This document shows positions 8,842-61,103 of a stretch of DNA of 64,000 bases, piece after piece. The position numbers and the translations under genes are program-made. Position 1 is the stretch's first letter; every line of letters starts with the position of its first letter. Origin of the DNA: Plicaturopsis crispa FD-325 SS-3 (Eukaryota; Basidiomycota; Agaricomycetes; Amylocorticiales; Amylocorticiaceae); NCBI GenBank assembly GCA_000827205.1, contig KN832558.1:1166239-1230238 (forward strand), read 5' to 3'. Under the pieces are notes generated by a model. It saw only the letters and a list, made by a program, of their open reading frames with translations. It was not told where the DNA came from and did not search any database.

Positions 8842-9986
8842 CTAGGCGCTTTCCAAGTCCTCCGCCTCCTCGCCACCCGCTTCCTCATGTTCTGCCTCCT
8901 TGTCCTGATCCTCGGCCTCGACCTCCTCGTCTTCTGCCTCATTATCTCCAGCTTCCTTGTTCTCCGCGTCCTCGTTCTCCGCGTCCTCGTGTTCCGCGTC
9001 TTCTGCCTCGAGATCCCCGGCATCCTCGTTCTCCGCATTGTCCCTCATATCCACTTCAAATCGGCCCACCAGAGGCTGAAAGATGCTCGTGTCCACTTCA
9101 TCACCGTCACACTCCAGAAAAACGAGCAGCTCAAGCTTGACACCGCGGGCCAGACGACTAGCGAGGCAGCGCTGAAATGCCGCTACGGTTGCAGTTGCGC
9201 GAATTTCCAATCCGACAAAAGCAAGCGTGTGCAGCGCACGCACGAGGGTCAAGGAGCCTTCTGTCGCGGACAGGGCGGCGAGGAGTTCGCAGGTCTGTTC
9301 AGCAGACTGATGTAGGACGTTGAGCTCCTCCAAGCCCCCGAGAGGCGCGAGGCACTGCGCCCATCGCTCTGCGGGCATCTCGTCCGAGACCGACTCTATG
9401 GTCAGCGAGACTAGGCACGGAAGCGGCAGGTGCGTGAGCAGGACGGGCAGCACCTGCGCGTCAGGAGGGATTCTCTCTCTAAAGTACAAGTCGACCATTG
9501 CTATGTCCCCGCCTGACGGAGGCCGCCTAGTAGTAGTGATAGTGGTGCCGGCTTTGCTGTTGCATATGATGCTTACGTGGTCGATGCGGTCGCTGAATCG
9601 TGACTCGGCGATGGAGATGCTGTGCGTGGACTGAACGTGAGTTCCGTCGAAAGCCGCCAGTGCGACACCTAAAAGACGATCGATGTCTCCGGGCCAGACA
9701 TTCCACCAAGCATAGAACTTGATCGTGGGCGGCATCTCGACGTGTTGCAAGAAAAATCTACCCGCGCTGAGAGAAGTATGATATAGCTGCAGTGTACGGA
9801 GGTGGGGCAAGCTCAGAATACCTCGAAAAAGATCTCCGCCGGAAGGCTGGCGTTGATCGGCGCGAGCGCGTTGCGCTGCGTGCAGAGCGTCCGCACTGTC
9901 TCCAGCACACGCTCGATTTCCTCGTCGAATTCTTGCCAAGTGTCGAGTTCTACTGCTGCAGAATCCACCATGTCATTCGATGCCAT
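8842..9986 (-). pseudogene. Broken F-box/LRR-like gene
   Basis: Paralogue of the intact F-box gene at 10584-12350, pointing away from it. From the ATG at 9986 the frame reads a normal N-terminus and the start of an F-box (NASLPAEIFFEVF), then reaches a TGA near 9824. The leucine-rich part (SLPHLRTLQLYHTSLSAGRF and onward) resumes at once in a different frame and stays open to 8842. Compared with the paralogue, about 220 codons between the F-box and this point are missing, so the break is an internal deletion that also shifted the frame. The C-terminal tail is a Glu/Asp/Ala repeat (EDAENEDAENK type), a longer form of the acidic tail of the intact copy. If expressed, it would give only a short F-box peptide or an F-box-less fragment. 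Confidence 0.75.
8862..9050 (-). repeat. Low-complexity acidic tail repeat
   Basis: Imperfect tandem copies of a short unit built on gcctcctcgtt / ctccgcgtcctcg on the + strand; on the - strand they code for the Glu-Ala-Glu-Asp tail of the broken F-box gene. Such tracts expand by slippage. Confidence 0.6.
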
Positions 9987-10583
9987 GTTATCCGGGCTCG
10001 AAGCGTTGAAAAGATTTTCTCGACGGATGCTTCTGAAAGACCAATGCGTCTGTGTCGTCCCTGGTCCTCCCAGGGGCGTTGAAACCTGGAAAATGGTAGG
10101 ATGAGACCCGTTTCGTCTAGATTAGCGGCGCTTACTACAGTGTGCAGTCTCCGCGAAAGCTATCAAGCGTCGATATGGCGATCTGCAAGGTATCAAGGAC
10201 TCGCATCGCGCAGATCGCTCGTGCTGGGATCGATAGTGATGTGACTTACATATATCACATTGTGTAATCGTCGAGTGTGGTAACGCCGACACGGTATCCA
10301 TCCACCATGCTGTGTTGTATTTCCTCTGGATAATCAATCGATGCGATCTAACCGAGGAAAAAGCAGGCACATACTACTCAGAGGTCTTCAAGTCCAGGAT
10401 TTCAAGCGAACTTTTGCGCACTTCAAGTCGAGATTTAGCGCGTCGACCATCTCACTATCTATCACAATCGGGGGAGACTAGGTGTAAGCGCGACTACACT
10501 CGACGTTTTTGGTTGTGGACTCACATAATTATGATATCAAGTACATATTCGAACCACTGCGAGCGACATAACTGGCCCCAATA
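9987..10583. other. Region between head-to-head F-box paralogues
   Basis: 597 bp separating the two start codons, the expected site of both promoters. No recognisable motif; short open frames here look random. Confidence 0.5.
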
Positions 10584-12350
10584 ATGTGCGATCCCGCGAC
10601 GATGCAGAGAACAGAGAACAGTGCCTCCCGAAAGACGCTCGACAAGGAGATCGCGCGCCTAATACGCACCGTCTACCAGCTCCGCAAGCGTCGCAACACG
10701 CGCGTGCCCATCGGCCGGCTCCCCACAGAGATCCTCGCTGACATATTCCTGTACGCGCGGCGAAACTGGAATGGGCTCTCACGCACCTGCAGCCACTGGC
10801 GCCGCGTCGCGACACAATTGCCCGAGCTCTGGGCGCCCCTGGTCGATCCCTACGCCAACAAGATGTGGACGTTGCTGCTCCTCACTGTGCGCGCGCCCGA
10901 CGCGCCGATCAAGCTCGACTTCGACGCCGCGGTGTGGGACTACGAGCGGCACTACTGCGCCGTGGTGTTTCCGCATGCGACGCGGGCGTACGAGCTGCGC
11001 ATAAATGGCCATCCAGACGAGATGCAAGACATCACGCTTGGCATTGGGGGGCCCATGCCGCTTCTCCGATACCTGACTGTGAAATTGTTGGACTTGCAGC
11101 AAGCGCCGTTCGTGATTCCGGATTGGTTCTGCTCGAGCACGCCAAAGCTGGAGTACGTGAGCTTGAGCGGCTGCGCTGCAACGTGGGACAGACCGCTCTT
11201 CGGTGGCCTCCAGCACTTGATCATCGCCCATCCGGCGGGGTGGGGGGATCATGCTGAACCGCAGAGGCGTCTGTCGTGGTCGCAGCTCCTCAACGTGCTC
11301 AGTGCAAACCCCGCACTCCGTTGGCTGGAGCTCACGGATGCACTCCGCGGAGGGTCACCCGGTCCTGGCACGGAGCCGGAATACCCACCGGTCAGCATGC
11401 CGCACCTCGAGGGACTGAAGCTCATGGACAGCGATCTGAGCACGGGGTTATTTTTTCTGCGTCACGTTCGGCTCCCGCTGTCGACTGTGTTTATCGCGTC
11501 GTGGGATATCAGCGGAGAGATCGACGGCCTTCTTAGCGATGCGCTGGCGGCTTTCCAGGGGACCGGCGTCCAGTTCACGCGCAGCATCAGCGTCGGTCCC
11601 AGGTCTGTGACGAACATCATCACGTCCATAGCTTTTTCGTGCGTGAGCGGGACTATAGTTCCTCTGCCGCTCCCAGAGCAAGCATCACGCGGTGATTTTG
11701 AGGGCTTAATCCTGGGGCTGACGTTGCGCGCCACCCCCGCGATCTTGCAGGCCCAGGTGCTGCCCACCCTGTTCGAGCGCTTGCCGCTTCCGCGCCTCGT
11801 CTATCTGGAGATGTTGGTGACAGAGGTGCTCCCCGCGGAAGTGTGGGCTCGAATCCTCGCGCCGGTGCCATGGCTGCAGGAGCTCTTCGTGCACGGGTAT
11901 GTGGTGGAGCCTTACCGCGGGCTTTTCTCCGCCCTATCCGCGGCGGCAGGTCCCGTCGTGGCGCCTGCGCTGAACACGCTTGGATTCCTTATTCAGGATA
12001 ATTTTGACGGAGTGTCGGCTGCGGAGCTGCAGCAAAGCCTGACAAGTCGTCGCGCGCGCCATAAGGAGCTAGAGCGGCTCGCGTTCATAGAATGCACCGG
12101 GGATGATGGGCGCCCGTTCAACGCGAACATCTTTCAATCTTTGGTGGGAAGAATAGAGGTGAAATCAGTGCACACGGCCGACGAAACAGCCACGGACCAC
12201 GAATCGGAGGCGGACGAGAGTGATGAGGCGAACAATATGGTGGGGGAAAACGACGCAGCTGCAGAGGCGGACGAAACAGCTGAGCACAACGAGACGGACG
12301 AGACGGCAGAGGGTAACGTTAACGAGGTGAACGACAACGACAGGGAATGA
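10584..12350 (+). CDS. F-box protein with leucine-rich C-terminal region
   Basis: Intron-less gene of 588 residues. The F-box lies near residues 40-85 (IGRLPTEILADIF, then WRRVATQLPELWAPL), preceded by a basic helix; this motif docks on Skp1 of SCF ubiquitin ligases. The rest is a degenerate leucine-rich region of the kind common in large agaricomycete F-box families, which would bind the unknown substrate. The last 60 residues or so are Glu/Asp/Asn/Thr-rich and probably disordered. The start at 10584 (MCDPATMQRTENS) could instead be the second ATG at 10602. It lies head to head with its broken paralogue, which suggests an inverted duplication. Confidence 0.85.
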   Translation: MCDPATMQRTENSASRKTLDKEIARLIRTVYQLRKRRNTRVPIGRLPTEILADIFLYARRNWNGLSRTCSHWRRVATQLPELWAPLVDPYANKMWTLLLLTVRAPDAPIKLDFDAAVWDYERHYCAVVFPHATRAYELRINGHPDEMQDITLGIGGPMPLLRYLTVKLLDLQQAPFVIPDWFCSSTPKLEYVSLSGCAATWDRPLFGGLQHLIIAHPAGWGDHAEPQRRLSWSQLLNVLSANPALRWLELTDALRGGSPGPGTEPEYPPVSMPHLEGLKLMDSDLSTGLFFLRHVRLPLSTVFIASWDISGEIDGLLSDALAAFQGTGVQFTRSISVGPRSVTNIITSIAFSCVSGTIVPLPLPEQASRGDFEGLILGLTLRATPAILQAQVLPTLFERLPLPRLVYLEMLVTEVLPAEVWARILAPVPWLQELFVHGYVVEPYRGLFSALSAAAGPVVAPALNTLGFLIQDNFDGVSAAELQQSLTSRRARHKELERLAFIECTGDDGRPFNANIFQSLVGRIEVKSVHTADETATDHESEADESDEANNMVGENDAAAEADETAEHNETDETAEGNVNEVNDNDRE

Positions 12351-12442
12351 CTACAAGACCTACTGTAGCTCTATTACAGATCCCCGGTCTACATCAGCAA
12401 AACCACAATTTTGATCATTGTAGACAGCATAGAAAACTCATA

Positions 12443-12562
12443 GTCTCGTATCACCAGACTCTCTAGACCTTCCCATTCTGGGCCCCTTGTCTACAGAGTC
12501 TGGGATACCACCAACCACTTACATAGATAGCTGCGTCTCAGGATTTCGCGGCGCGTCGCTCT
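12443..12562 (+). repeat. Left 120-bp terminal inverted repeat
   Basis: Perfect reverse complement of 13187-13306; the match stops at 12563. Confidence 0.92.
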
Positions 12563-13186
12563 GCTCTGCACGAACGCCGTTTATGCGTCGCGATCCCAAT
12601 TTTTGTCCTTTCACCTTCATTCTTTCTGTAACATACGAGCAGCACAAAACAAATATATTTGTTCCTTTCAACGGACACGAAAATCGAAAAATTACGGACG
12701 TGAGAGTGTACAAAGGTCCGGATGTAGATATGTACATTTGGCCCACTGTCATGCGTCCCAGAGCTACCCGTAACACCTATAAAGCTAGGACAACCTAGGG
12801 TACATATTCCCGTACGCATAACCGTCGAAAAACGAGTTCGAACGGGCTGTAGACGGTTATGGAGACGTACCGAATATACACCTTGTGCAAGACTGCCGAC
12901 CCTTGAGATGAAGTTTCGAAAACAAACTTTTCGCGAGTCCCATGTCTTCCTAGCATGTTCAGGCATGTTGCTGAGTCGTTCCGAGGCTCGGAAATACGCT
13001 GTGGAAACGCCGAAAAATGCATGTACGGCGACGCTTGCTGTGTGCGGCTGGCGATGAATTCGTGGATTTTATCCACAAAACAAAGACGTAGGGGTCGTCG
13101 CAATGGGTATACGAGCACGCCGCCGAGATTTTGAAGCCAGAGAGTAGATGCAGAGCAAGATGTAGAGAAGAAAATAAACGAGGAGG

Positions 13187-13306
13187 AGAGCGACGCGCCG
13201 CGAAATCCTGAGACGCAGCTATCTATGTAAGTGGTTGGTGGTATCCCAGACTCTGTAGACAAGGGGCCCAGAATGGGAAGGTCTAGAGAGTCTGGTGATA
13301 CGAGAC
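13187..13306 (-). repeat. Right 120-bp terminal inverted repeat
   Basis: Perfect reverse complement of 12443-12562. Confidence 0.92.
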
Positions 13307-13569
13307 TAGAAAACTCATAGTACACATACATGACCATACGCGGAGGTCCAATGCGTCCCATCCACCAAATCCGTCTAGGTGCGAGTCTAAACGGCATTCT
13401 CACCGCCACAGGGCCTTTCTACGGGCGTCCTCAACGCAGTACATAAGTACTGCATATATCTTGCTGCCATTCACATTATCTTTCCACGGAGATACTATAA
13501 CCATAGCTGGTAGCCATGCATGCATCGTAATTACCTCAAGCCCAGCCTAGTCGACCTTGCCATTATACA

Positions 13570-48820: not shown

Positions 48821-49733
48821 AGGGCCCTCGCGTTCTTGCTTCATGATCGTTTGTTTAGATTACGTCGATACCTACTTAGTAAATGAGCACACCGGTGACC
48901 GGGTCACCCCCAAACTTTACGGCGCGAGTGTGAGTGTGGTCAACATATCGTGGACCTCAAGCTCCAAGGGCTGTGAAAATGTTCGAATTACTCTCTCGAA
49001 CGCGTACGTTTCGATATGCTGTGGGAAGCGGTGATGGGTCCGGGAGGAACTTCCTGCTCTCAGCGACTAGAAACACGACGGTAGCGGGCATGGACCTTGG
49101 GTACTGCTACAAGTACTGCATTTCAATCGCTCAATGATGATCTGACTGTCACCGCCCTAATCCTGTAAAAGTTTCACAAGGAGCACTTACGGCCAAAGGG
49201 CCAGCAAAGAGGAGCAGTGAAAAGCGTGATTATATTCAGAATGGATACAATGTTGAAGCTCTGCCGTAGACACAATGCGGCATGCGCTGCGCAGCCGACG
49301 CATGCTGAGCCCAGAATCCGACGACTCCAATATGCAGACAAACGTATCTAGGAGAAAAGAGATGCGTTAGCGGAGATTCGCGGATACACAGACGATTCAA
49401 GTTGGAAGTCAGAAGGCTAGGTTATAGAAGTTGTCGGCATGCTTGTACAGCGGTGTCTAGTCGCTTCTTGGAAACACGGACCATAGCGAATGATCATCAC
49501 AGGAGAGAACGAGAGGCACTTGTGCAAGAGAATATGCGGACTCACGGGAATATGTCCAAGTAACAAGCGCGTGAAGGAGGAGGACGACACTTCCGCCACG
49601 ACGCCCGTCGACGCGATGGCCGCGACATTGCTGTCCGTCCGATGCATGCAACGCGCCGCACAGAAGTTCCCAGATCGACAGGCCAAAGTAAAGCGATGGA
49701 AAAAGGTGCGACTCGGAACGGAGAAAAATAAAA
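48821..49733. other. Intergenic region left of the large element
   Basis: 913 bp without a recognised gene; it runs up to the target duplication at 49734. Confidence 0.5.
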
Positions 49734-49760
49734 GCAAAATCACCTCGACCTCACGTATAC

Positions 49761-49814
49761 CCAAGCTAATTAGCTTGGACTAGGGGCCCCCCTTGCACAA
49801 GCTAATTAGCTTGG
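49761..49814. repeat. Left terminal palindrome cluster
   Basis: Perfect palindrome CCAAGCTAATTAGCTTGG (49761-49778), then a GC-rich palindrome GGGGCCCC (49783-49790), then CAAGCTAATTAGCTTG again (49798-49813). Each could extrude as a hairpin. Confidence 0.9.
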
Positions 49815-50482
49815 AATCTACTGCAGTCACTCACTGCCAGTATTTAGTGAATAAATCGTAAATATTTTGCCGGTAAACGCTAAGTCCGTTGATCAACGTT
49901 AACACGCGGCGGTGCAAAGGCGTAGAGCGTCATGATGTAAGCATGCTGATGCCGGATGCGTCGTCGTCGTCGCCATGAACGTTCGTCGCCGTTGTCGACG
50001 ATGAGCTCAACTATCTCCTCAATAACTCATCTGTTTCTTAGGTTTCTTTTGCAGCCTACCTTTATACACGTGTCTAGATACCTTATGCATGTTCAGTTCG
50101 CTTTCCAATAGCTCTATCAATGCACTACATACACAATGTCTGTCTAACCAAAAAACAAACTACTTACCTCCATGCCTACCTAAGCACCCGTAGAATCCTC
50201 TCGTTTGGGGCCTACGGGTCTATATAGGAAGGTGTAAGAGGTCTCACGGGTATCTGCCCACTCAAAATATCAAAAATGTGCCACAAATGCGGAGTATGGA
50301 GGCAGGAACTTACTGGAGCATCCAATAGCCCAAATTGCATAGTAGCGAGTCCATGTGGACCTCCATGTAGTGCAGTAGAATGATGTTCAAGTAACTGGCA
50401 GGTATAGAGGGTCAGAATGTGGAAATGCGGAGGGGGAGGAAAGGGAGGCATATGGTAAGTTATCCAACTTATCTGATACCTG

Positions 50483-51335
50483 TCATACGTCCTGGATTCC
50501 CGAAGAGATGCATTTAGAATCTGTCTTCCAAGTATAAGCCGTCCTTGATGTGTTAGAAGGCATGCAGGAGGTCAGAAATGCGATCATATATGCATAAATA
50601 TGTATTTGGGGACTCACCTGATCTATCCTTCGGCTACAAGCTAGCATAGACATGTCAAGCACGATGCATATGCTGTAGACGGACGCTTGGATAATGTATA
50701 CAAGTTTGGGGGAGCAAAGAAACATGAGCTGGAAGGTGAACACATTGGAATGCAAGATTGTAACTTACAAACGCCTTGTGTAGTCGCAGTAGACCTCTGA
50801 AAAGGATACAATTCCTCTCAGATATCTCTCGTTGTACCCCTCGAGTTCCCTAAGAAACCATTAAGTGCTGCTCATTGTTGTTGCTGTGTCTGAGAGATAC
50901 CAATGTTGATGGCATGGTGATCCCAAAGTCACCTAAGATCACAGGTTACAGCGCAATCACGATGAGCACACTGTAATTTGGCCAGCAAAATATGAATGTA
51001 CACACGATAGTACCTGATTCGTTGTCGTACTTCAGGACTAGAGGCCGTTCTCGAAGGCGGAAGAGAGGTGTACGGTGAAACACTGATTTTGTCGAGATCG
51101 AGGGCAGGTTATCGAATTTGCGGTCGAAATTAGCGCGGAAAGCGAGGGTAGACAGTTTAAGCACAGAAGTATATGGAACAAAAGAATTGACGAGAATCAG
51201 TGTGGTGTAGCCAGAGACCGGCGCGTCCGAGCGTTGAGACGACGAGGAAAGTGCGGAAGTCAATAGTCTCCCGTAGGCAGCCCTAGAGAGTGAAGACAGT
51301 CGTTCACTCATTAGGGTCTGCTTTCGGTCGCGCAT
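50483..51335 (-). other. Possible outward-reading spliced gene in the left arm
   Basis: From an ATG at 51335 a frame runs leftward to a GT donor near 51014, and coding-like text continues in pieces (ELEGYNERYLRGIVSFSEVY near 50790-50850; IIQASVYSICIVLDM near 50655-50700, ending at a GTGAGTCCCC donor near 50617). The right arm keeps a matching IIQATVYSLCSLID reading and the same donor at 58552. I cannot name a family; it could be an extra element gene or leader exons. Confidence 0.3.
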
Positions 51336-51530
51336 GAAAAGCCGTAGTACTTTTTTTGAGGTCGCTAATTCCCACGCTCGTGATCACGTTACAAGTATGC
51401 AGCGCGACCTAGCGCGACGCGTCGATGTTTTTTGGTGTATTGCTTGTATTCGTTCATCCAGCCGCTAAAGGCGGCTGCTAGCCTCGCAGATGGACTTACC
51501 TGAAGATGGAGAAGACTCTCTCCCGATATA

Positions 51531-51805
51531 CTGTACGAAAACGACCATAACTTCGCGCCGATTTCGTGTGACCCATGTCATGGTTAGCTTTGCAGCTTCA
51601 TAGTCCTCGGTGACCTGTGACGAAGGTGCAGATAGCTTCGTTCCTTACCAAATTTGGTAATTTCTGGCGGAAATTTTTGATTTTTCGCAACGAAAGTGTC
51701 ACAAATTTGCTTCGCCGGGGCAAATTTGGCGTGACTGTCCTACAAAATAGCTTCACTTCGTCGCCCGGGTGGACGTGTGACGAAGTTATGGTCGTTTTCG
51801 TACAG
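51531..51805. mobile_element. 275-bp mariner-type MITE nested in the large element
   Basis: Perfect 25-bp inverted ends (51531-51555 and 51781-51805, beginning CTGTACGAAAACGACC) flanked on both sides by TA (51529-51530 and 51806-51807), the Tc1/mariner duplication. It carries no gene. An ATG at 51490 opens a frame MDLPEDGEDSLPI that would run straight into the DUF6589 frame (YSPLSVPIPPL) if the MITE and one TA were absent, so the MITE appears to have landed 13 codons into the original coding sequence. Confidence 0.85.
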
Positions 51806-54800
51806 TACTCTCCGCTTTCTGTACCCATTCCTCCATTGACACCAATCCATCCTTCGACAAATCACAGTTTTTTTTCCACAATTCCCTCATGGCCCGCGAG
51901 CCTATCTAGTCACCGTACACCACAACCACTGCCCCCAACACCATCTACTCCTCGCACGGCGAGCGGACGAAAATCTCGTGCCAAAAAGCGTAAACAGCCG
52001 AACGAAAATGACGAGCCGGGAGCGGGTCCTCCATGGAAGAGGACCAAGGCGGAGTTGAGTCCCGCAGAAAAACTAGACGCATTTTTCCATCTGCTTGCTG
52101 AATTCAAATGGAGTCTTGGAGAGTTACTCTACCATACCTTCGACTCGACGAAGGCTAACGGGAAGGTGGACGAAGAAACTGCACAGCCAGCCGCCGCCGC
52201 AGTGGCCCCCACTGCAACCACTATTAGGAGTCGTGCTGCACATATTCAGCACTTTTGCAATGGACGAGGAGGTTACGGGGCAGCTGATATCCTTCGACTG
52301 TGGCTCCGACACCCGTCTGGCCGTAACGGGAGGACATCGGAACTCATGTATTCCACAACAATACCGTACACTGATATCCCGCAAATCCGGCCAGCGCTTA
52401 CCTCATTCGCAGCGCAGCAGGTGAAGAAGAAGCTGATTGAGGAGGCAGATGAGGCGATCAAACCTTCAAGCGGTCTACATGCTTCGAAGGGAGCAGGATG
52501 GTCCGATATTGGCGGGACGACCTGGTCGCGCGTCCAGGGAATTATACAAGAGCACCAGCCCTTGACATGGTCACTGACCATGGCTGTTGCGGCAAAACCT
52601 CCCCGGGTTCGAAATAAAGTTGTTGCTGTGCGGAAAAATCGCCCAGCGGATGTCGTGAGCAAAACTGAATACTAGATATGCAGATATTGACTAACTTGTA
52701 ATACTCATGGCCACAGGTATCGACGGAGTCCATAAGCTCGCTCAATTTCTCCCGCTCTAGTCATGCCAATCTACTGCCGAGCGCGCGCGGTATGCTTTAC
52801 TTTGGATCATCTGCCCCGGTCGACCTTTTCCGTTATAATAGCCGCGCTGGGAATATGCCTGCATATACATCCGTCCATCGCATGCTGCGCGAGCTATCGC
52901 TGCAGGAAGCGAAGGTGACAGAAGCACATGGACGTGATCCCAATACAGTGGGCATCATCCGCCTGGATAACGTACAGAACTATCTCCGTCAGCGCGATCA
53001 TCGAGTAGGCAGGCAGAACAAACTCAACATAGGAATCGCCGCAACCTATTTTGAGGTCGAAGGCATTGACCCCAAGGTGCTTGACCTCGATGACAAGCGA
53101 CGGTACCTGGCGAAGAATCTTCGAAAGGACCTTACAGTGGATAAGCTTCTATCCCTGATCGACAATGACCATCTCGAAACTATCGGTATACTTCAATGGC
53201 TACAAGCACTCACTCGCATCCCAGAGCTCGCCCATATGAAGGAGTTCATCTCTATTTTGTACCGCGAACGCGCAGCAAAGCAGCCGCTCCCTGCCGTGGC
53301 GAACAAGACTCATCCGCTTGCATCAAGTGGCCTGAACGAGACGGTGAACACCGAGCTGAAAGACGCCCTCGTTGACTTTTCGGGGCAGATCGGCCAATCG
53401 AGTACGGATTTCTTGAGGCGCTTAGGTCCCATAGGAGGCGACGGCCTGACATACGAGAAGTTCCTCCTGTTGAAGGAGTATCTTCAGTTCCACGACAACG
53501 ACTTCGAAAGTCTCGAAACTCTGGAACCGATGCTAGAATGGTGGCATACGGAGTGGACAGACCTTAACCGGGTGTTCGAAACCCATTGGGGTCCCCCGCT
53601 CAGCAACGATCCCTCGACGCTAGGCCATAGCGCGGCGAAAATCGGTCGAAAGACGCCTCCGAATCTGAAGAAAGTTGATTATTATGCTGGCACCCAGCTG
53701 GCATACTTGATCTTGGACGTACGGATGCTTGATTGTTGGAGGTTTGTGCACTTTCCATTTATCGCTCGCGATTCAATACTGAAATCGAAATATACCACTC
53801 GTTAGGCTTCACTTTGGCTGCACAGATATTTTCGAGTATTTTGCGCACCTGGGAAAGTCGGACATGTTGCCGAATTTTGAAGATCTGGAAAACACGGCAC
53901 GGAAGCTGTTCAGGGCATATACAAGCTCTAGGGCCCAGTATCGGGCAATGTTTGACACAAGCAACGAAAGCATATGGTCCGAGACAGTTCCTTCGGGTAC
54001 TCCGTGGACCGACGAAGACGTTCAGACGTCCAGTGCTGGACTCGATCTTGGGGATAGGAAAGGGAAAAGGAAGGGGAAAAAGGCGGCGTCTTGCGGCAGA
54101 GGAGCAAAGGGAAAGGAAGAGGGAAATGGCGCAGACGAGCCTTTCAAAGGCGACCGGGTGCTGGCACGCTCGATAGCATTTATGCGGGACGCAATGATTT
54201 CTCGCGAGGCTGCATACGCAACGGCGGAGGGAGACGTCGGGAGAGTCTACGAGGCAATGAAGGTTATGCTATTCACCTTCGCTGGATCAAGTCACACAAA
54301 GTACTCGACGTACCTTCTCGAAACAATAACGAACCTCGAATACGAGTGCAGCCCTGAGCTTCGAAAAGCCCTGCTGAAGATGTCGCTCGTTAACCTCACT
54401 GGGAAACCGGGAGCCTTCTCCGCCGGCGACTTGGTTCAGGAGTACTTCAATCGACTTCTCGAAGCTGTGGGAGATAAGAAAGGGATTGAATATGGTGCCG
54501 ATTTCGCGCGCAACGTCATCTCGCGTAATTTGCATCATATGGCTCGCCTGAAGAGGGAGTGGCTTGACGGCGTAGGTCTCGCCTCTAGAGCTGCGCGCCA
54601 CAGCGATCCTAACTCTGACGCGGAGGTGCGACTACTGCTCAAGGAGTATCGGGAGCGCGAGCTGCATTCGCGCCGACCAGGCCGGTCCATGGAGGGCACG
54701 GATGTCGACGATTTCAATCGCGGAATGAATAACCTTCGAAAGGGGAAGCTGAAGAAGTGGATTACAAAGACGACACAGACACGGGGATTACGAAGGGAGG

Positions 54801-55156
54801 CTGCAGCTCCAGCAAGTACTGCAAGTGGGGATGCAACCACAAGCACACCTGCTGCAAGGGAAGAGCGCCAAGAGACACCGGGTCTCGACACCCGTAATGT
54901 TTCCAATGGCCCCGGGGATGAATCGGACGGGGAGGATGTTGAGGAAACTGGAGAGGAGGACAGCACAAGGTCAACGCTTGCCTCGATGCAACTCATTGAC
55001 GGCGAGTACATCATGGAGGCCATGGATATTGACGGTGATGCAGAAGAATACTGGGCGCATTTTGAGGCTACTGATGGAGATAGCAACGAAGGTAACGATG
55101 AAGATAACGAGACAGCGGGAGGGGAGGCCGGGTCAAGGTCCACCGACGAGGAATAA
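51788..55156 (+). CDS. DUF6589 protein, candidate transposase of the large element
   Basis: Three exons: 51788-52654, 52717-53741, 53806-55156; 1,080 residues from the ATG at 51788, which lies in the right end of the nested MITE. The ancestral start was probably 51490, upstream of the MITE. Residues about 30-80 are Pro/Ser/Thr-rich and basic (SGRKSRAKKRKQ, nuclear-localisation-like). From about 315 the DUF6589 region follows: FRYNSRAGNMPAYTSVHRML, LDNVQNYLRQRDHRVGRQNK, NETVNTELKDA, IGGDGLTYEK, WTDLNRVFETHWG, LAYLILDVRMLDCW. A Lys-rich insert near 710-730 and an acidic C-terminus flank the helical last part (FAGSSHTKYSTYLLE, HELHSRRPG-like). D373, D531 and E577 fall in strand-then-acidic contexts like those of RNase H-fold transposases; that role is inference. 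Confidence 0.82.
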
Positions 55157-55219
55157 GAGGCATCCTCTGGTATCCTATGCTGCACGTTTCTACGATGGAA
55201 TTAAATAAGTAGAGGTAGC

Positions 55220-57604
55220 TCAATCGCAGGGAATAAGACTTACCGAGAGACGTGATGATCGACGTACACTGGGGATACAGACGTACTGATCAAGACTTGT
55301 TTCAACGCAGTAGATAGATAACAATACGTACACGGAAGCCTCGGGTCTTTGGGACGAGTCTGCAGTCATATTTGACTGTACGGCGTGCGCACTGTCTAGC
55401 TGCTCCAATATTGACAAGCTGTTGCGTGGCCTAGACGATCTGTTAACACACATCCATGTCGAAAGCAGCCCAGCCAATTTACTCACCGTTGCAGACCACT
55501 GGCGGCTCCACGGTTGTCGATGTCGATTGACGACGGGCGCTCGACAACATCGGGTGCACGCCCGTCGACATCTACTCTGTCGCCCTCATTGATTCCATCT
55601 TTCTCGTCAGAGCTCTCATCGGAGCTACTCTCCTCGCCATCTGATCCAGCTCCCACTGCCGGCGATGCTTGACTGCCAACGGCTGCTGCTGCTGCTGCCG
55701 CTGCCGCCGCCTTGGCTATCTTTTTGGCTTTGCTGGCTGCTGCTGCGTCGATGCGGATTTGGGCGAAGTCGGCTCGTAACTCGACGATGACGTCGAAGAG
55801 TTTAGTATGATGACCGTCGAGCAAGGAGTTGTCGCGCACGAGATCGGCCACGTCTTGTGGTGTCTTGAGAAGTACGAAGACATTGAGGATAACCTCAATA
55901 ACATCGTCGGGAAGAAACGCGTCCGGCGGGAACCATCCAGTCTTCCGCTCGTCCGCGCTCATCCAGACGGTACGCCGAAACTTCTCGAGGCGTTCGACAC
56001 CGTGAGCTCGCATGGTCCTTGTTACTCGCTTGTGCTGCGGGATGGAATTCGACTTGGTCTTTGCGCGACGCTTGCGCTTCCCAGTCGGCGCACTGGAAGT
56101 TTCGGCAACAATTGCTTCTTCCTCCGGAACACATCCGGAGCAGGAGCATCGCAGAGGGGGCGGAGGTGGTGGATTTTCACGGCATGATGCACATGAGCAT
56201 GGTACGTCGTTCTTGGGGTTGTCGTATTGTCTGTTCTGCTCGTTGACTTTACACTCAGCCAGCAGCATCTCCGCAATGCTGAGGTCCATCCCAGTTGTGC
56301 TCTGTGGCTTTCCCTCGGACGCATTCTCCTTCCTTTCCTCGACAACTTTTCGTGCATTCTCCGCAGCGTTGGCGCCTACGTATACGATACCCCGTGCGCC
56401 CGATACCAACCTGCGATCCCTTCCAACGCGACCGATTTTCTGGACGTACTCGTCCGTGTCGAGTGGATCCAGGACGATGACCAGCGAGAAGTCGGAGATG
56501 TCGATACCGACGGACAACGTGTCGGTTGCGATGGTCACTTGGGCGTCAAGTGCACTGTGCAGGAGCTCGAGAGTTTCGGCGTTGAAAGTGGGCCAGTTCA
56601 GTGAGTTGTATAGTCGTATTCGTTTTCGACGTGTTTCAATGTCGATACTGGGGTCCAGCTGCCAGAGATATACAGCGACACGAAACCCCAGGTGAATGGA
56701 ACGGCAGAAAATCAACGTCTTCCCCTTCTCGCGGAGAACCCACGCCAGCTCTGGGAATGCCGTTGCGGCTAAACCGGAACGCAGAGTCCTGAAAAGGATC
56801 TGGACGTCGTGGCGGATGTTTGAGCGCCGGATCAGATGGAAGCGACCTTCGTGCAGCCCAAGGAACTGACAGATCGACTTCGTAGGTTGACCCGTGCGCA
56901 TCGTTGCGGTGAGAGCAAGAAGAACGACGCTCGAAGAGAACCGCGCTCGCATATTACCAACCTCGAGGAACGATGGTCGAAATCCAACCCCCCACGAATT
57001 CATCAGATGAACCTCGTCTACAACGAGAGCAAAGGCACGTTCTTGAAACTTTTTCTGTCGCAGTAATTGCTCAAAACCTTTCGATGTAAGCATCTCCGGA
57101 GTGACGAGTATGACCGTCGTGTCGCTCTCGGCCTTGGCCCATAGATTTTTGCCGTCCTTCCGTGCTTCATCGAGCGTGTTGCGAGTTATGGCTAGTGCAG
57201 TGAGTCCTGTTTCTCTAATCTTTCTCTCCTAGAATCGAAGTTAATCGTGTATATGCTATAGAAATGCCCGCTGCACACACCAAATCTTCCTCGAGGGACG
57301 TAGTCGGACAGACGACTACCGCTGCGGCATTCTTAGGAAACTTCGCGGTCGGGCACAGAGACGGTTCTCTCTCGATGGCAAGCACAACGAGCATGAGCAT
57401 ATATATGTAGCCCGATTTTCCTGAACCGGTCGCGGTCACAGCGAGGACGTCTACGCCGTCCAGTGCCTTCGTTATGCCATCTATTTGATAGTCATGAGGC
57501 TCATATGGCAAAGATTTTTTCAAAATATCACGGCAGAGCGTCCATCCTTCAGGCGAGCTGAATTTGAAAGGTTTCGGCGGTCCGTCCTCGCTGCTTGGGG
57601 CCAT
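55220..57604 (-). CDS. RecQ-family DNA helicase of the large element
   Basis: Three exons in transcript order: 57604-57281, 57228-55487, 55439-55220; 761 residues. Superfamily 2 motifs are intact: motif 0 (HDYQIDGI, Q40), Walker A TATGSGKS (57-64), DEVH box (179-182), ALTAT (213-217), and QKIGRVGRD (371-379, motif VI with its arginine finger). The DEVH in place of DEAH/DEXH and the short helicase core are like the RecQ-like genes scattered in agaricomycete genomes. After the core come two close cysteine groups, CSCASC (452-457) and CSCSGC (469-474), separated by a proline run, then a basic NLS-like patch, an alanine tract and an acidic Ser-rich tail. The third exon depends on a good CG|GTGAGT donor; without it the protein ends at 55483. 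Confidence 0.85.
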
Positions 57605-57700
57605 ACTGGAGTGTAATTCACGAGAAAATCGCGCGAAAATTTCAATACGCGTCTCGTTAATTGACGCGTTTTGTGGCGTGGGATACTACATGTGACGCAG

Positions 57701-59416
57701 AAAAAGTACTACGGCTTTTGCAGCGCGACTGAAACTAGACTAGGAAGTCAAGTCGCGCGTAGATTTGGCTCAAGTCGCGTTCCCCGCAACTGGCCTCCGA
57801 TCTCCACCTCGACGGCACTCTTTCTCGACGATCTCGACGACCCCTCGACCGATCTCGCTCATTTCAATCGTACATTTCTCTACTCCTCACATGCTATCAT
57901 TCCCGCTGCATCCGAACAATGTATTGGCCTCGTTACCGTCGCCGATTGCCGACGAGGACTGGCTATGCACGGAGCTGCTGCATCGTCGCCTACGTCGCAT
58001 CGCGTCGTCCAGTACTCACGGGGGCACAGGAGAGTCCGGAATTTGTATACTGTATCATAAATGTGAGTAGTTTTACTGTTCTGGCCCACGGTTTCGCTTA
58101 CAGAACCCCACATACCGGTGTCTTCCTATAGGATTCAATCCGCATAATGTCTGTCGTCAGTTCGTGACACCTCCCGCGTCCAAGGCATAGAGTGGGGTAG
58201 AGACCTCTCATATAGTTAATAGCTGTTAAAGGCTGGGGTCCATCCAAATTGCTTTAGTGAGTGCATCTTGTTTGACTGTGGTATGTGCTCTGACAACTGA
58301 ATCACAGCATCATCTCCTTAAATCAGCCTTGTTTAAGACGAACGAGGGTCTTATAACTACCATGGGTACTTCCTCTGTGGCCCTATGGCGCCTATGGCAT
58401 AGGTAAGTTATGTTCTCATGCAGTATGCCTCCCCCTCCCTGCTCAAGATTCCTTGCTCCTCCAGCCTTGTATGCATCATCCAAGCCACTGTATACAGTCT
58501 ATGCAGTCTTATTGACGTGCTTTTGTCGGTTTGAACCGAGGAATAGACAAGGTGAGTCCCCAGATAAAAAACTATGTGTATGTGTTCACATCTCTGACCT
58601 CCTGCACGTTTTTACACATCCGGGACGGCTTATACTCAGCATACGAACTCTTTATGAGTCCCCTGGATGGCTCATGATGTATGTGAGGTATCAGCTAAGT
58701 TCCCAGGTGCTTCCCTTTCCTCCCCCTCCGCATTTTTGATATTTTGGCCCTCTGCACCTGCCACGTACTCGATGATGCGCATCCTGCACCTATAAAAGGT
58801 ATATATGGACGAATCATTATGCATTTGGGGCTGTAGGATGCTCTGGTAAGTCTCTACACCCCCTCATCCTCGATTTGTGGCGTATTTATGACATATTGAG
58901 CGGTTAGATATGAATAAAACCAAATGGGACTGCAATCTATCGACTAGTAGGCCAAAAACGAGAGGGTTTCAACGCTCTGTGGTAGGTATTGAGGCTATAA
59001 ACTCGCCTTTTTCTGTAGACAGATGATATGTACTTATTGGTCTAATGAAGCACTTTATAAGTTAAGCGAAGGTACAGAAAGCTTGAGAATACATGTGCAT
59101 CGCTGGGCTACAAAAGAAACCTGAGAAAAAGATGAGGTACCGAGCAGGACCCGAGCTCATCGTCGACGACAGCGACGAGCGGGTTTGGCGACGACGACGA
59201 CGCGTCCGGCGGTAATGCCGGAATAATGCGTGTGCTTACATCATGATCGTACACCTTGCGCGTGGTGATGGACTTAGCGTTTCCCTCGGCGAATTTACGA
59301 TTGATTCGTTATTTACTGGCAGTGAGTGACAACAGTAAGTTCCAAGCTAATTAGCTTGCGCTAGGGGGGCCCCTAGTCCAAGCTAGTTAGCTTGGTTATA
59401 CGTGAGGTCGAGGTGA
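57701..59416 (-). repeat. Right inverted arm of the large element
   Basis: Inverted partner of 49740-51355; its innermost perfect block is 57701-57719. Confidence 0.75.
59343..59395. repeat. Right terminal palindrome cluster
   Basis: Mirror of the left cluster: CAAGCTAATTAGCTTG (59343-59358), a GC palindrome around GGGGCCCC (59366-59373) with CTAGGGG/CCCCTAG arms, and CCAAGCTAGTTAGCTTGG (59378-59395), palindromic but for the centre. Confidence 0.9.
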
Positions 59417-59613
59417 GCAAAATTTATTGCATTTCGTTATTTGTCCGAGTTTGATACTACGGCTAGCGGAGGTAGCCGGCGCCGACGCTCTCCTGCTTGC
59501 TTGCTCATCGTACGCACAAGTTATTTATTGAACGAGATGGACGCAGATACGAGCGTTCCCTTGTGCCCTCTTCCTGCTACCTGCGTTCACCAAAATCCAA
59601 ATTATTTCTCAAG

Positions 59614-61103
59614 ATGGCCCAAATGCGCGCTGTACTCATTAAAGATGGCAAAGGTCCTATCGAGAACTTGCACGTTGGCGAGACATCCAAGCCTGTCCTA
59701 GCCCCAGGACAAGTGATCGTCAAGGTGCGGTTGGCACCTATGATTACATCTAGTAGAATTCACGCAGAACTAACGCACGGTCTAGATCAAGGCGTTTGGC
59801 CTCAATCGAATGGATCTCAGTCAACGAGTGGGAATGTACCCTCCCCCTGCTGGAGCTAGCGACATCCTCGGCGTCGAGTTCTCGGGACATGTGTGCGAGC
59901 TTGGTCCCGACGTCTCGGCATGGAAAATCGACGATGAAGTCCTTGGCCTCGCCGGAGGGGTAGGCGACAATTTATCATGAAAGCCGGAGAATTTATCGGT
60001 TACTCAAACTGTGACCTCATCATAGGGTGCCTACGCCGAGTACATCGCAGTTTCTGAGAGAACTATTATGAAGAAACCAAGCGAACTTTCTTGGGTCGAA
60101 GCGGCTAGTATCCCTGAGAATTACTTGACAGGTCCGTTGACGAATACATGGACGCGTGTATATTCTTACCGCCTTGAATTACGATAGCCTTCCAGGCGCT
60201 CGTCAAGTACGGGGAAGTTGAAGAGGGTGACAACGTTCTTGTTCATGCCGGGGCGTCCGGAGTGGGCATCGCAGCCATACAGTTGGCTCGCCTCTACAAG
60301 GCGTCGGTATCTTGCGTCTCATTCTCTCCGTCATCCGGCAGCATCTGATTCCTCGAATAGTAAATCCGTAACTGCGACAGCATCCTCGAAAGAGAAACTC
60401 GACAAACTTCTAGCCATGCCCTCTGGCGCTACCCATGTAGTGAACTACAAGACGGAGGACTTCGCCGCTGAAGTTAAGAAGACAACAGGGGGGAAAGGCG
60501 CTAACGTAGTTATCGACTTTGTCGGACAAAGTCACTGGCATCAAAACATTGACGCCCTAGCCGTCGATGGACGGATGACGTTACTGGCCACTCTGAGTGG
60601 TATGCAAAATTGTCCATTATTTTCTTCGCCCCCAGATAAACCATCTCCTACAGGCGGTGAGGTGCCGAAGATGGACATCAGGCCGATTCTGTACAAACGC
60701 CTCCGGATACAAGGCTCAACCCTGCGCTCACGAACTCAAGCGTATCAAGGGGATCTCGTTGCACAGTAGCTCGTTTCCACATCTTTGGCAATACGCGCAG
60801 CTGATGTGTGGGGGCAGGTTTGCTCGCGAGGTTCTTCCTAGTATCACAGGTGCCAATGGTGGCGGTCCCCTCAAGACGTTCATACACAAGGTTTGTCCGC
60901 CCGCATGGCTTCGCACATGCTGCATAAGCGACTGCTAACCGTACCTATCTGCTTACCAGGTCTATCCGTGGACGGAGATTCAGGAGGCTACCAGCGAGAT
61001 GGCCGGGAACAAAAACACGTATGTCGCAATCGTCCGGTCACGGATCTGCGTCCGGCGTACTGACTATGTCTACAGTGGGAAGATCATCGTGGAAGTCGTT
61101 TGA
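59614..61103 (+). CDS. NAD(P)H quinone oxidoreductase (zeta-crystallin / PIG3-like)
   Basis: Medium-chain reductase without zinc, probably using NADPH to reduce quinones. Nine exons: 59614-59724, 59786-59959, 60026-60131, 60188-60302, 60361-60599, 60654-60765, 60818-60890, 60960-61018, 61076-61103; 338 residues. Family text: GFGLNR-like [48 protein letters not shown], nucleotide-binding GASGVG (152-157), [11 protein letters not shown] and [13 protein letters not shown], which is the PIG3 signature region. No cysteine zinc lobe is present, separating it from the alcohol dehydrogenase at 27182. It starts 198 bp right of the large element, so the insertion probably lies in or near its promoter. 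Confidence 0.93.

Follow-up and report, generated by a model that had tools for sequence, protein, structure and literature searches.

A 9.7-kb insertion unit in Plicaturopsis crispa with terminal inverted repeats, a DUF6589 gene and a RecQ-like helicase gene

The insertion unit and its two genes

We analyzed a 64,000-nucleotide stretch of contig KN832558.1 of Plicaturopsis crispa FD-325 SS-3, referred to here as the window, in which all coordinates are given. At 49740-59416, the window contains a 9.7-kb insertion unit, which is bounded by terminal inverted repeats (TIRs) and contains one gene for a DUF6589 protein and one for a RecQ-like superfamily 2 (SF2) helicase (Table 1). Short introns and the gene families present fit a fungal host, probably an agaricomycete. 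An earlier note on this DNA had placed the element at these coordinates, and they are exact in the sequence. The note had also described the element as inserted as one unit and as carrying this convergent gene pair, and both descriptions were borne out by the inverted ends with exact direct repeats outside them and by the two genes on opposite strands. The outermost 20 bp of the two tips are identical, and this tip sequence (TCACCTCGACCTCACGTATA) is present at exactly two sites in the window, in inverted orientation, while shuffled sequences gave an expectation of 0.

To read the flanking duplication, we compared boundary shifts of −4 to +4 and lengths of 3-15 bp. The 6-bp duplication proposed earlier, GCAAAA, is exact on both sides and gives the tips TCACC..GGTGA. 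An 8-bp reading, AGCAAAAT, is equally exact and gives the tips CACCT..AGGTG; since the tips have T as their first and A as their last base, 6 bp is only one of two good readings. The exact 4-bp reading CAAA leaves asymmetric tips in which the outermost bases are unpaired. Over these shifts and lengths, we found no exact 9- or 10-bp repeat, and a 10-bp repeat can be read by eye only with two mismatches, which are at its outermost bases. Between the two 100-bp flanks, 6-mers agreed at 2 of 9025 offsets. The element as a whole is thus enclosed by exact direct repeats, of 6 or 8 bp, and both of its genes have open core reading frames.

Both introns of the DUF6589 gene have splice sites that preserve the reading frame. 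The Pfam profile PF20231 matched exon 2 and exon 3 separately (E values of 8.7e-61 and 1.2e-65; 206.3 and 222.3 bits for the exon pieces), and it matched the reading from exon 2 across intron 2 to exon 3 with an E value of 4.4e-129 and 431.2 bits (gathering threshold of 27), covering positions 2-410 of the 410 in the profile. A nested miniature inverted-repeat transposable element (MITE), which is Tc1/mariner-like by its TA flanks, breaks the reading frame of exon 1. With the flanks of the MITE joined, the frame is open from the ATG at 51490; in the present copy, what is left of the frame has its first ATG at 51788, inside the MITE. Because the MITE interrupts exon 1 and contains the first surviving ATG, the DUF6589 gene of this copy is probably damaged at its 5' end.

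The helicase is encoded by a separate gene, for which five splice choices other than the one in Table 1 also preserve the frame. Its product has the Pfam domains DEAD and Helicase_C and the motifs TGSGKS, DEVH and GRVGR. The best PDB match was 'ATP-dependent DNA helicase Q5' (8.8e-11), and the best NCBIfam model was recQ_fam (8.4e-20). In the C-terminal part (56125-56205), the cysteine-rich words CSCASC and CSCSGC surround a proline run and are perhaps a zinc site; they are followed by a poly-alanine stretch and an acidic tail.

We searched viral and prokaryotic contigs for relatives of DUF6589 and viral contigs for relatives of the helicase. The DUF6589 scans gave 3, 31, 90 and 371 pattern matches and the helicase scan gave 1; tblastn confirmed none of them as relatives. 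The single match in a tblastn search of exon 2 against phages (E value of 0.3) was taken as chance. A search of 14 control genomes and a single viral record gave no PF20231 match, a result that does not demonstrate absence, and two NCBIfam matches to pieces of the DUF6589 protein (E value of 0.0084 each) were below the cut-offs and taken as noise. A search of 5.39 million open-access papers returned neither 'DUF6589' nor 'IPR046496', which we take to be the accession of the family, and no role of the family was found under those names. The string PF20231 is present in four papers, three of which concern unrelated subjects to judge by their titles, while in the fourth the term was not found at the start of a word.

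Table 1. Features of the insertion unit, in window coordinates
Feature	Coordinates	Strand	Description
Left target site duplication GCAAAA	49734-49739		8-bp reading AGCAAAAT at 49733-49740
Left TIR	49740-49863	+	124 bp, 90% complementary to right TIR
Left extended arm	49740-50736	+	No coding signal; related to right arm
Left tip palindrome pair CAAGCTAATTAGCTTG	49761-49814		Copies at 49762-49777 and 49798-49813; can fold into a hairpin
Shared block AAAAGCCGTAGTACTTTTT	51337-51355	+	Upstream of DUF6589 gene start; supported by a 43-nt match
DUF6589 gene	51490-55156	+	Three exons; introns 52655-52716 and 53742-53805; PF20231
Nested MITE	51531-51805		275 bp; TA on both sides; inverted ends CTGTACGAAAACGACCATAACTTCG; 27-nt arms counting TA
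RecQ-like SF2 helicase gene	55483-57604	-	About 689 aa with intron 57280-57229
Shared block AAAAGCCGTAGTACTTTTT	57701-57719	-	Upstream of helicase gene start
Right extended arm	58434-59416	-	No coding signal; related to left arm
Right TIR	59293-59416	-	124 bp, 90% complementary to left TIR
Right tip palindrome pair	59342-59395		59343-59358 exact, 59379-59394 with one mismatch; hairpin
Right target site duplication GCAAAA	59417-59422		8-bp reading AGCAAAAT at 59416-59423

Conserved residues of the DUF6589 protein and the proposed mechanism

Because relatives of DUF6589 were lacking, we read conservation from the Pfam profile PF20231 itself, as the bits lost against it upon alanine changes; residue numbers refer to the spliced protein and count from the Met encoded at 52792. 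We made 28 single changes, including 17 of acidic residues, and changed 34 other acidic residues in groups only; acids within a low-complexity insert, along with a few more, were left out. The largest single losses were those of E529 (−8.3 bits), H252 (−8.1), D525 (−6.9) and D217 (−6.6), and E529, D525 and D217 were thus the top losses among the 17 acidic residues probed singly. The other 24 of the 28 changes cost between −0.3 and −5.2 bits, from W251 (−5.2), G216 (−4.7), W266 (−4.7) and N532 (−4.6) down to D257 (−0.5), E245 (−0.4) and E222 (−0.3), with E254 at −0.7. The 34 acids changed in groups only formed seven groups of 3-8 residues with losses of −3.7 (4 residues), −2.6 (5), −5.8 (3), −5.5 (3), −4.8 (4), −6.2 (7) and −10.6 bits (8); the mean loss per residue did not exceed approximately 2 bits in any of these groups. 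A further group of four residues lost −9.3 bits together and −3.6, −3.6, −1.3 and −1.0 singly. The best conserved acids that we found are therefore those of a GD motif and of a D-x3-E motif approximately 312 residues apart, and a conserved His lies 35 residues past the Asp of the GD motif.

Based on the conserved residues, the DUF6589 protein is probably a transposase of the DDE (Asp-Asp-Glu) type. The suggestion of the earlier note that DUF6589 may be the transposase is in this way supported by a D ... D-x3-E pattern conserved in the Pfam profile, but it is not proven. We favor the reading, with a probability of roughly 0.75, that the element is a complete two-gene TIR DNA transposon in which DUF6589 is a DDE/RNase H-type transposase and the RecQ-like helicase is accessory. 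The proposed catalytic acids would be D59 (IIRLDN), D217 (GGDGLT) and E529 (GDLVQEYFN). The DUF6589 protein would attach to the palindromes of the tips, cut the element out and insert it again, while the helicase, which is probably accessory, might open the DNA at the tips or during strand transfer, or aid repair after cutting.

Several observations weigh against this reading. Pfam matched the DUF6589 protein to DUF6589 only and to no model named as a transposase, and the PDB matches were at chance level in one search (E values of 0.47 and 0.6) and absent in another. An AlphaFold model of exon 2 alone, made without relatives, had a predicted local distance difference test (pLDDT) score of 35.7 and consisted of helices only; it was not interpretable as evidence for an RNase H fold. 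The candidate first Asp, D59, is outside the PF20231 profile, the bit losses gauge fit to that profile rather than catalysis, and the group of eight residues (−10.6 bits) could hide a well conserved acid. Acids conserved in this way are compatible with some other metal-dependent enzyme as well. The helicase scored 71 bits with recQ_fam, for which the curated cut-off is 219.8, and because it falls so far below the cut-off we regard it as a divergent RecQ-like helicase. Finally, we saw a single copy of the element.

The uninterpretable fold model of DUF6589, together with the interruption of its gene by the MITE in this copy, would be accommodated if DUF6589 had an accessory or cargo role and the element were mobilized in trans by a different transposase able to recognize the tips. 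The conservation of the D and D-x3-E residues argues against this explanation, as does the observation that, apart from the helicase, no other candidate enzyme was seen within the element, and we consider it improbable.

Arms, tip palindromes and surroundings

The relatedness of the two ends extends past the 124-bp repeats and reaches approximately 1 kb. blastn paired 49740-50056 with 59106-59416 (77%) and 50531-50736 with 58434-58636 (75%), and the arm-to-arm alignment had 59% identity over 1681 columns versus 40-44% for 10 random segments of the window. Because outward translations of the arms looked suggestive, we considered a third gene hidden in them and rejected it: Pfam gave no match for four left-arm translations, and the arms had no codon-phase signal, the differences between them being spread over the three phases in 10 ungapped segments. 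One 75-bp stretch of the tip was skewed in codon phase, a skew resting on 4 differences. At matching places of both arms (50167-50768 and 58403-58982), GTRAGT-type words are spaced approximately 148 bp apart. The best autocorrelation shifts of the arms, at 142 bp (z of approximately 2.9) and at 321 and 158 bp (z of approximately 2.6), were drawn from 340 shifts with no null comparison, and we took these peaks as no more than chance. An Rfam scan over the window gave no match.

A 19-bp block, AAAAGCCGTAGTACTTTTT, precedes the starts of both genes and has two exact copies in the window, where 0 are expected. Its position before both starts suggests that the two genes may be under common regulation.

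Each tip contains two copies of the palindrome CAAGCTAATTAGCTTG, 36 bp apart. Allowing up to two mismatches, the window contains four copies (three exact, one with one mismatch) versus 0.02 expected. A pattern search for the palindromes in viral contigs returned the loci L001 and L002, which are pattern matches only. Folded as single-stranded DNA, the tips were more stable than shuffled sequences, with z values of −7.10 for 49740-49863 and −6.41 for 59293-59416. Because the two palindromes of a tip are neighbors, a hairpin at each tip is expected, and a true hairpin role is possible; the simplest reading is that a dimeric protein would bind both palindromes as duplex DNA.

The strength of these predicted hairpins, beside a gene for a RecQ-like helicase, fits a mechanism with single-stranded or hairpin transposition intermediates, in which the helicase would unwind the tips and a recombinase would recognize the subterminal hairpins. 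However, a pair of neighboring palindromes could equally well bind two dimers on double-stranded DNA, ordinary staggered cutting is favored by the long TIRs and the flanking duplication, and rolling-circle or tyrosine recombinase families were absent from the Pfam and NCBIfam matches. We therefore regard such intermediates as very unlikely, more so than mobilization in trans.

Approximately 200 bp separate the right end of the element from the ATG at 59614 beyond it, with which we take a dehydrogenase gene to begin. The open reading frame (ORF) at 60188-60766 matches zinc-binding dehydrogenases, and the ORF at 59476-59859, which holds this ATG, had no Pfam match; we infer that the two ORFs belong to one dehydrogenase gene. 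Elsewhere in the window, an 868-bp element at 12441-13308 has 126-nt inverted arms that are 99% complementary and an exact flanking repeat that can be read as 7, 9 or 11 bp (9 bp, GAAAACTCA). The two ORFs overlapping it had no Pfam match, and it is possibly a non-autonomous element of the Mutator-like element (MULE) or Academ type. Two collinear stretches of the regions 8845-9972 and 10572-12347 are similar in inverted orientation, one of 83 nt at 72% and one of 57 nt at 79%. The two regions contain divergent ORFs, the latter with an F-box-like domain and the former without a Pfam match, and are probably a divergent pair of related genes.

Comparison with named transposons

Kolobok transposons duplicate TTAA. 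The element described here differs from them in that its flanking repeat is not TTAA and in that Pfam matched DUF6589 only. KolobokH is described as having a RecQ helicase and is reported only from fungi, and Kolobok-1_CCri has the RecQ gene on the complementary strand (PMC9587614). The pairing of a transposase with a RecQ helicase is thus shared with KolobokH, and the placement of the helicase on the complementary strand is shared with Kolobok-1_CCri. The view of the earlier note, that no named superfamily with this gene pair is known, was too strong, as AcademH and KolobokH are named helicase-encoding TIR transposons (PMC10045372, PMC9587614, PMC10799480); because these precede it, the pairing of transposase and helicase is of a known kind.

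The fungal TET+ IS3EU families are described as having 6-bp duplications, TIRs of >30 bp and the ends TAYGG..CCRTA (PMC12730594). The element resembles them in its TIRs of >30 bp, and its duplication can be read as either 6 or 8 bp, but its ends are TCACC..GGTGA and it has no integrase-type Pfam match. RecQ helicase genes are also described near fungal telomeres (PMC10817607). The likeness to these is a RecQ-type helicase in a fungal genome, whereas the helicase gene here is within a TIR element and has a DUF6589 partner; a reading of it as a telomere-linked RecQ gene was rejected because it sits inside the inverted ends.

AcademH is a lineage of the Academ superfamily whose defining feature is a helicase encoded next to the transposase, and it is reported from three fungal phyla, i.e., Basidiomycota, Ascomycota and Mucoromycota (Kojima 2020, as cited in PMC10045372 and PMC10799480; phyla from PMC10799480). 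The element could accordingly be an ordinary AcademH transposon, with DUF6589 as the Pfam name of the Academ transposase and the helicase as the AcademH helicase. This placement overlaps with the favored reading as its conservative form, and we put it at slightly under even odds. Two observations agree with it: none of the Pfam matches of the DUF6589 protein is to a model named for a transposase, and putative non-autonomous Academ elements are reported to be widespread in Marasmius oreades (PMC8290104). The duplications speak against it: those of AcademH are given as 9 or 10 bp and those of AcademX as 3 or 4 bp, a difference related to helicase versus nuclease (PMC10045372), whereas the symmetric-tip readings here are 6 and 8 bp, in one insertion set against a published description. 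A 4-bp reading breaks the symmetry of the tips and a 10-bp reading requires two mismatches.

On the evidence from one insertion and the published descriptions, the element cannot be filed as AcademH. A more tentative proposal, which we hold to be less probable than a placement in AcademH, is that the family DUF6589 comprises the transposases of a fungal DNA-transposon superfamily not described before, or of a third Academ lineage. Its hallmarks would be duplications of 6 or 8 bp, tips of the TCACCTCGACC type in which the palindromes come in pairs, and a RecQ-like helicase gene convergent with that of the transposase. If so, an unexplained Pfam family would become a family of mobile elements; should DUF6589 instead prove to be the transposase of Academ, an annotation link would be gained and not a new class. 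A complete element with ends, flanking repeat and helicase partner gives DUF6589 a testable role, supplies end sequences for searching fungal genomes and is a further instance in which a probable transposase is accompanied by a RecQ-like helicase. Among the named systems, its gene content is closest to that of AcademH; both occur in fungi and pair a helicase with a transposase, which for the element described here is a probable one.

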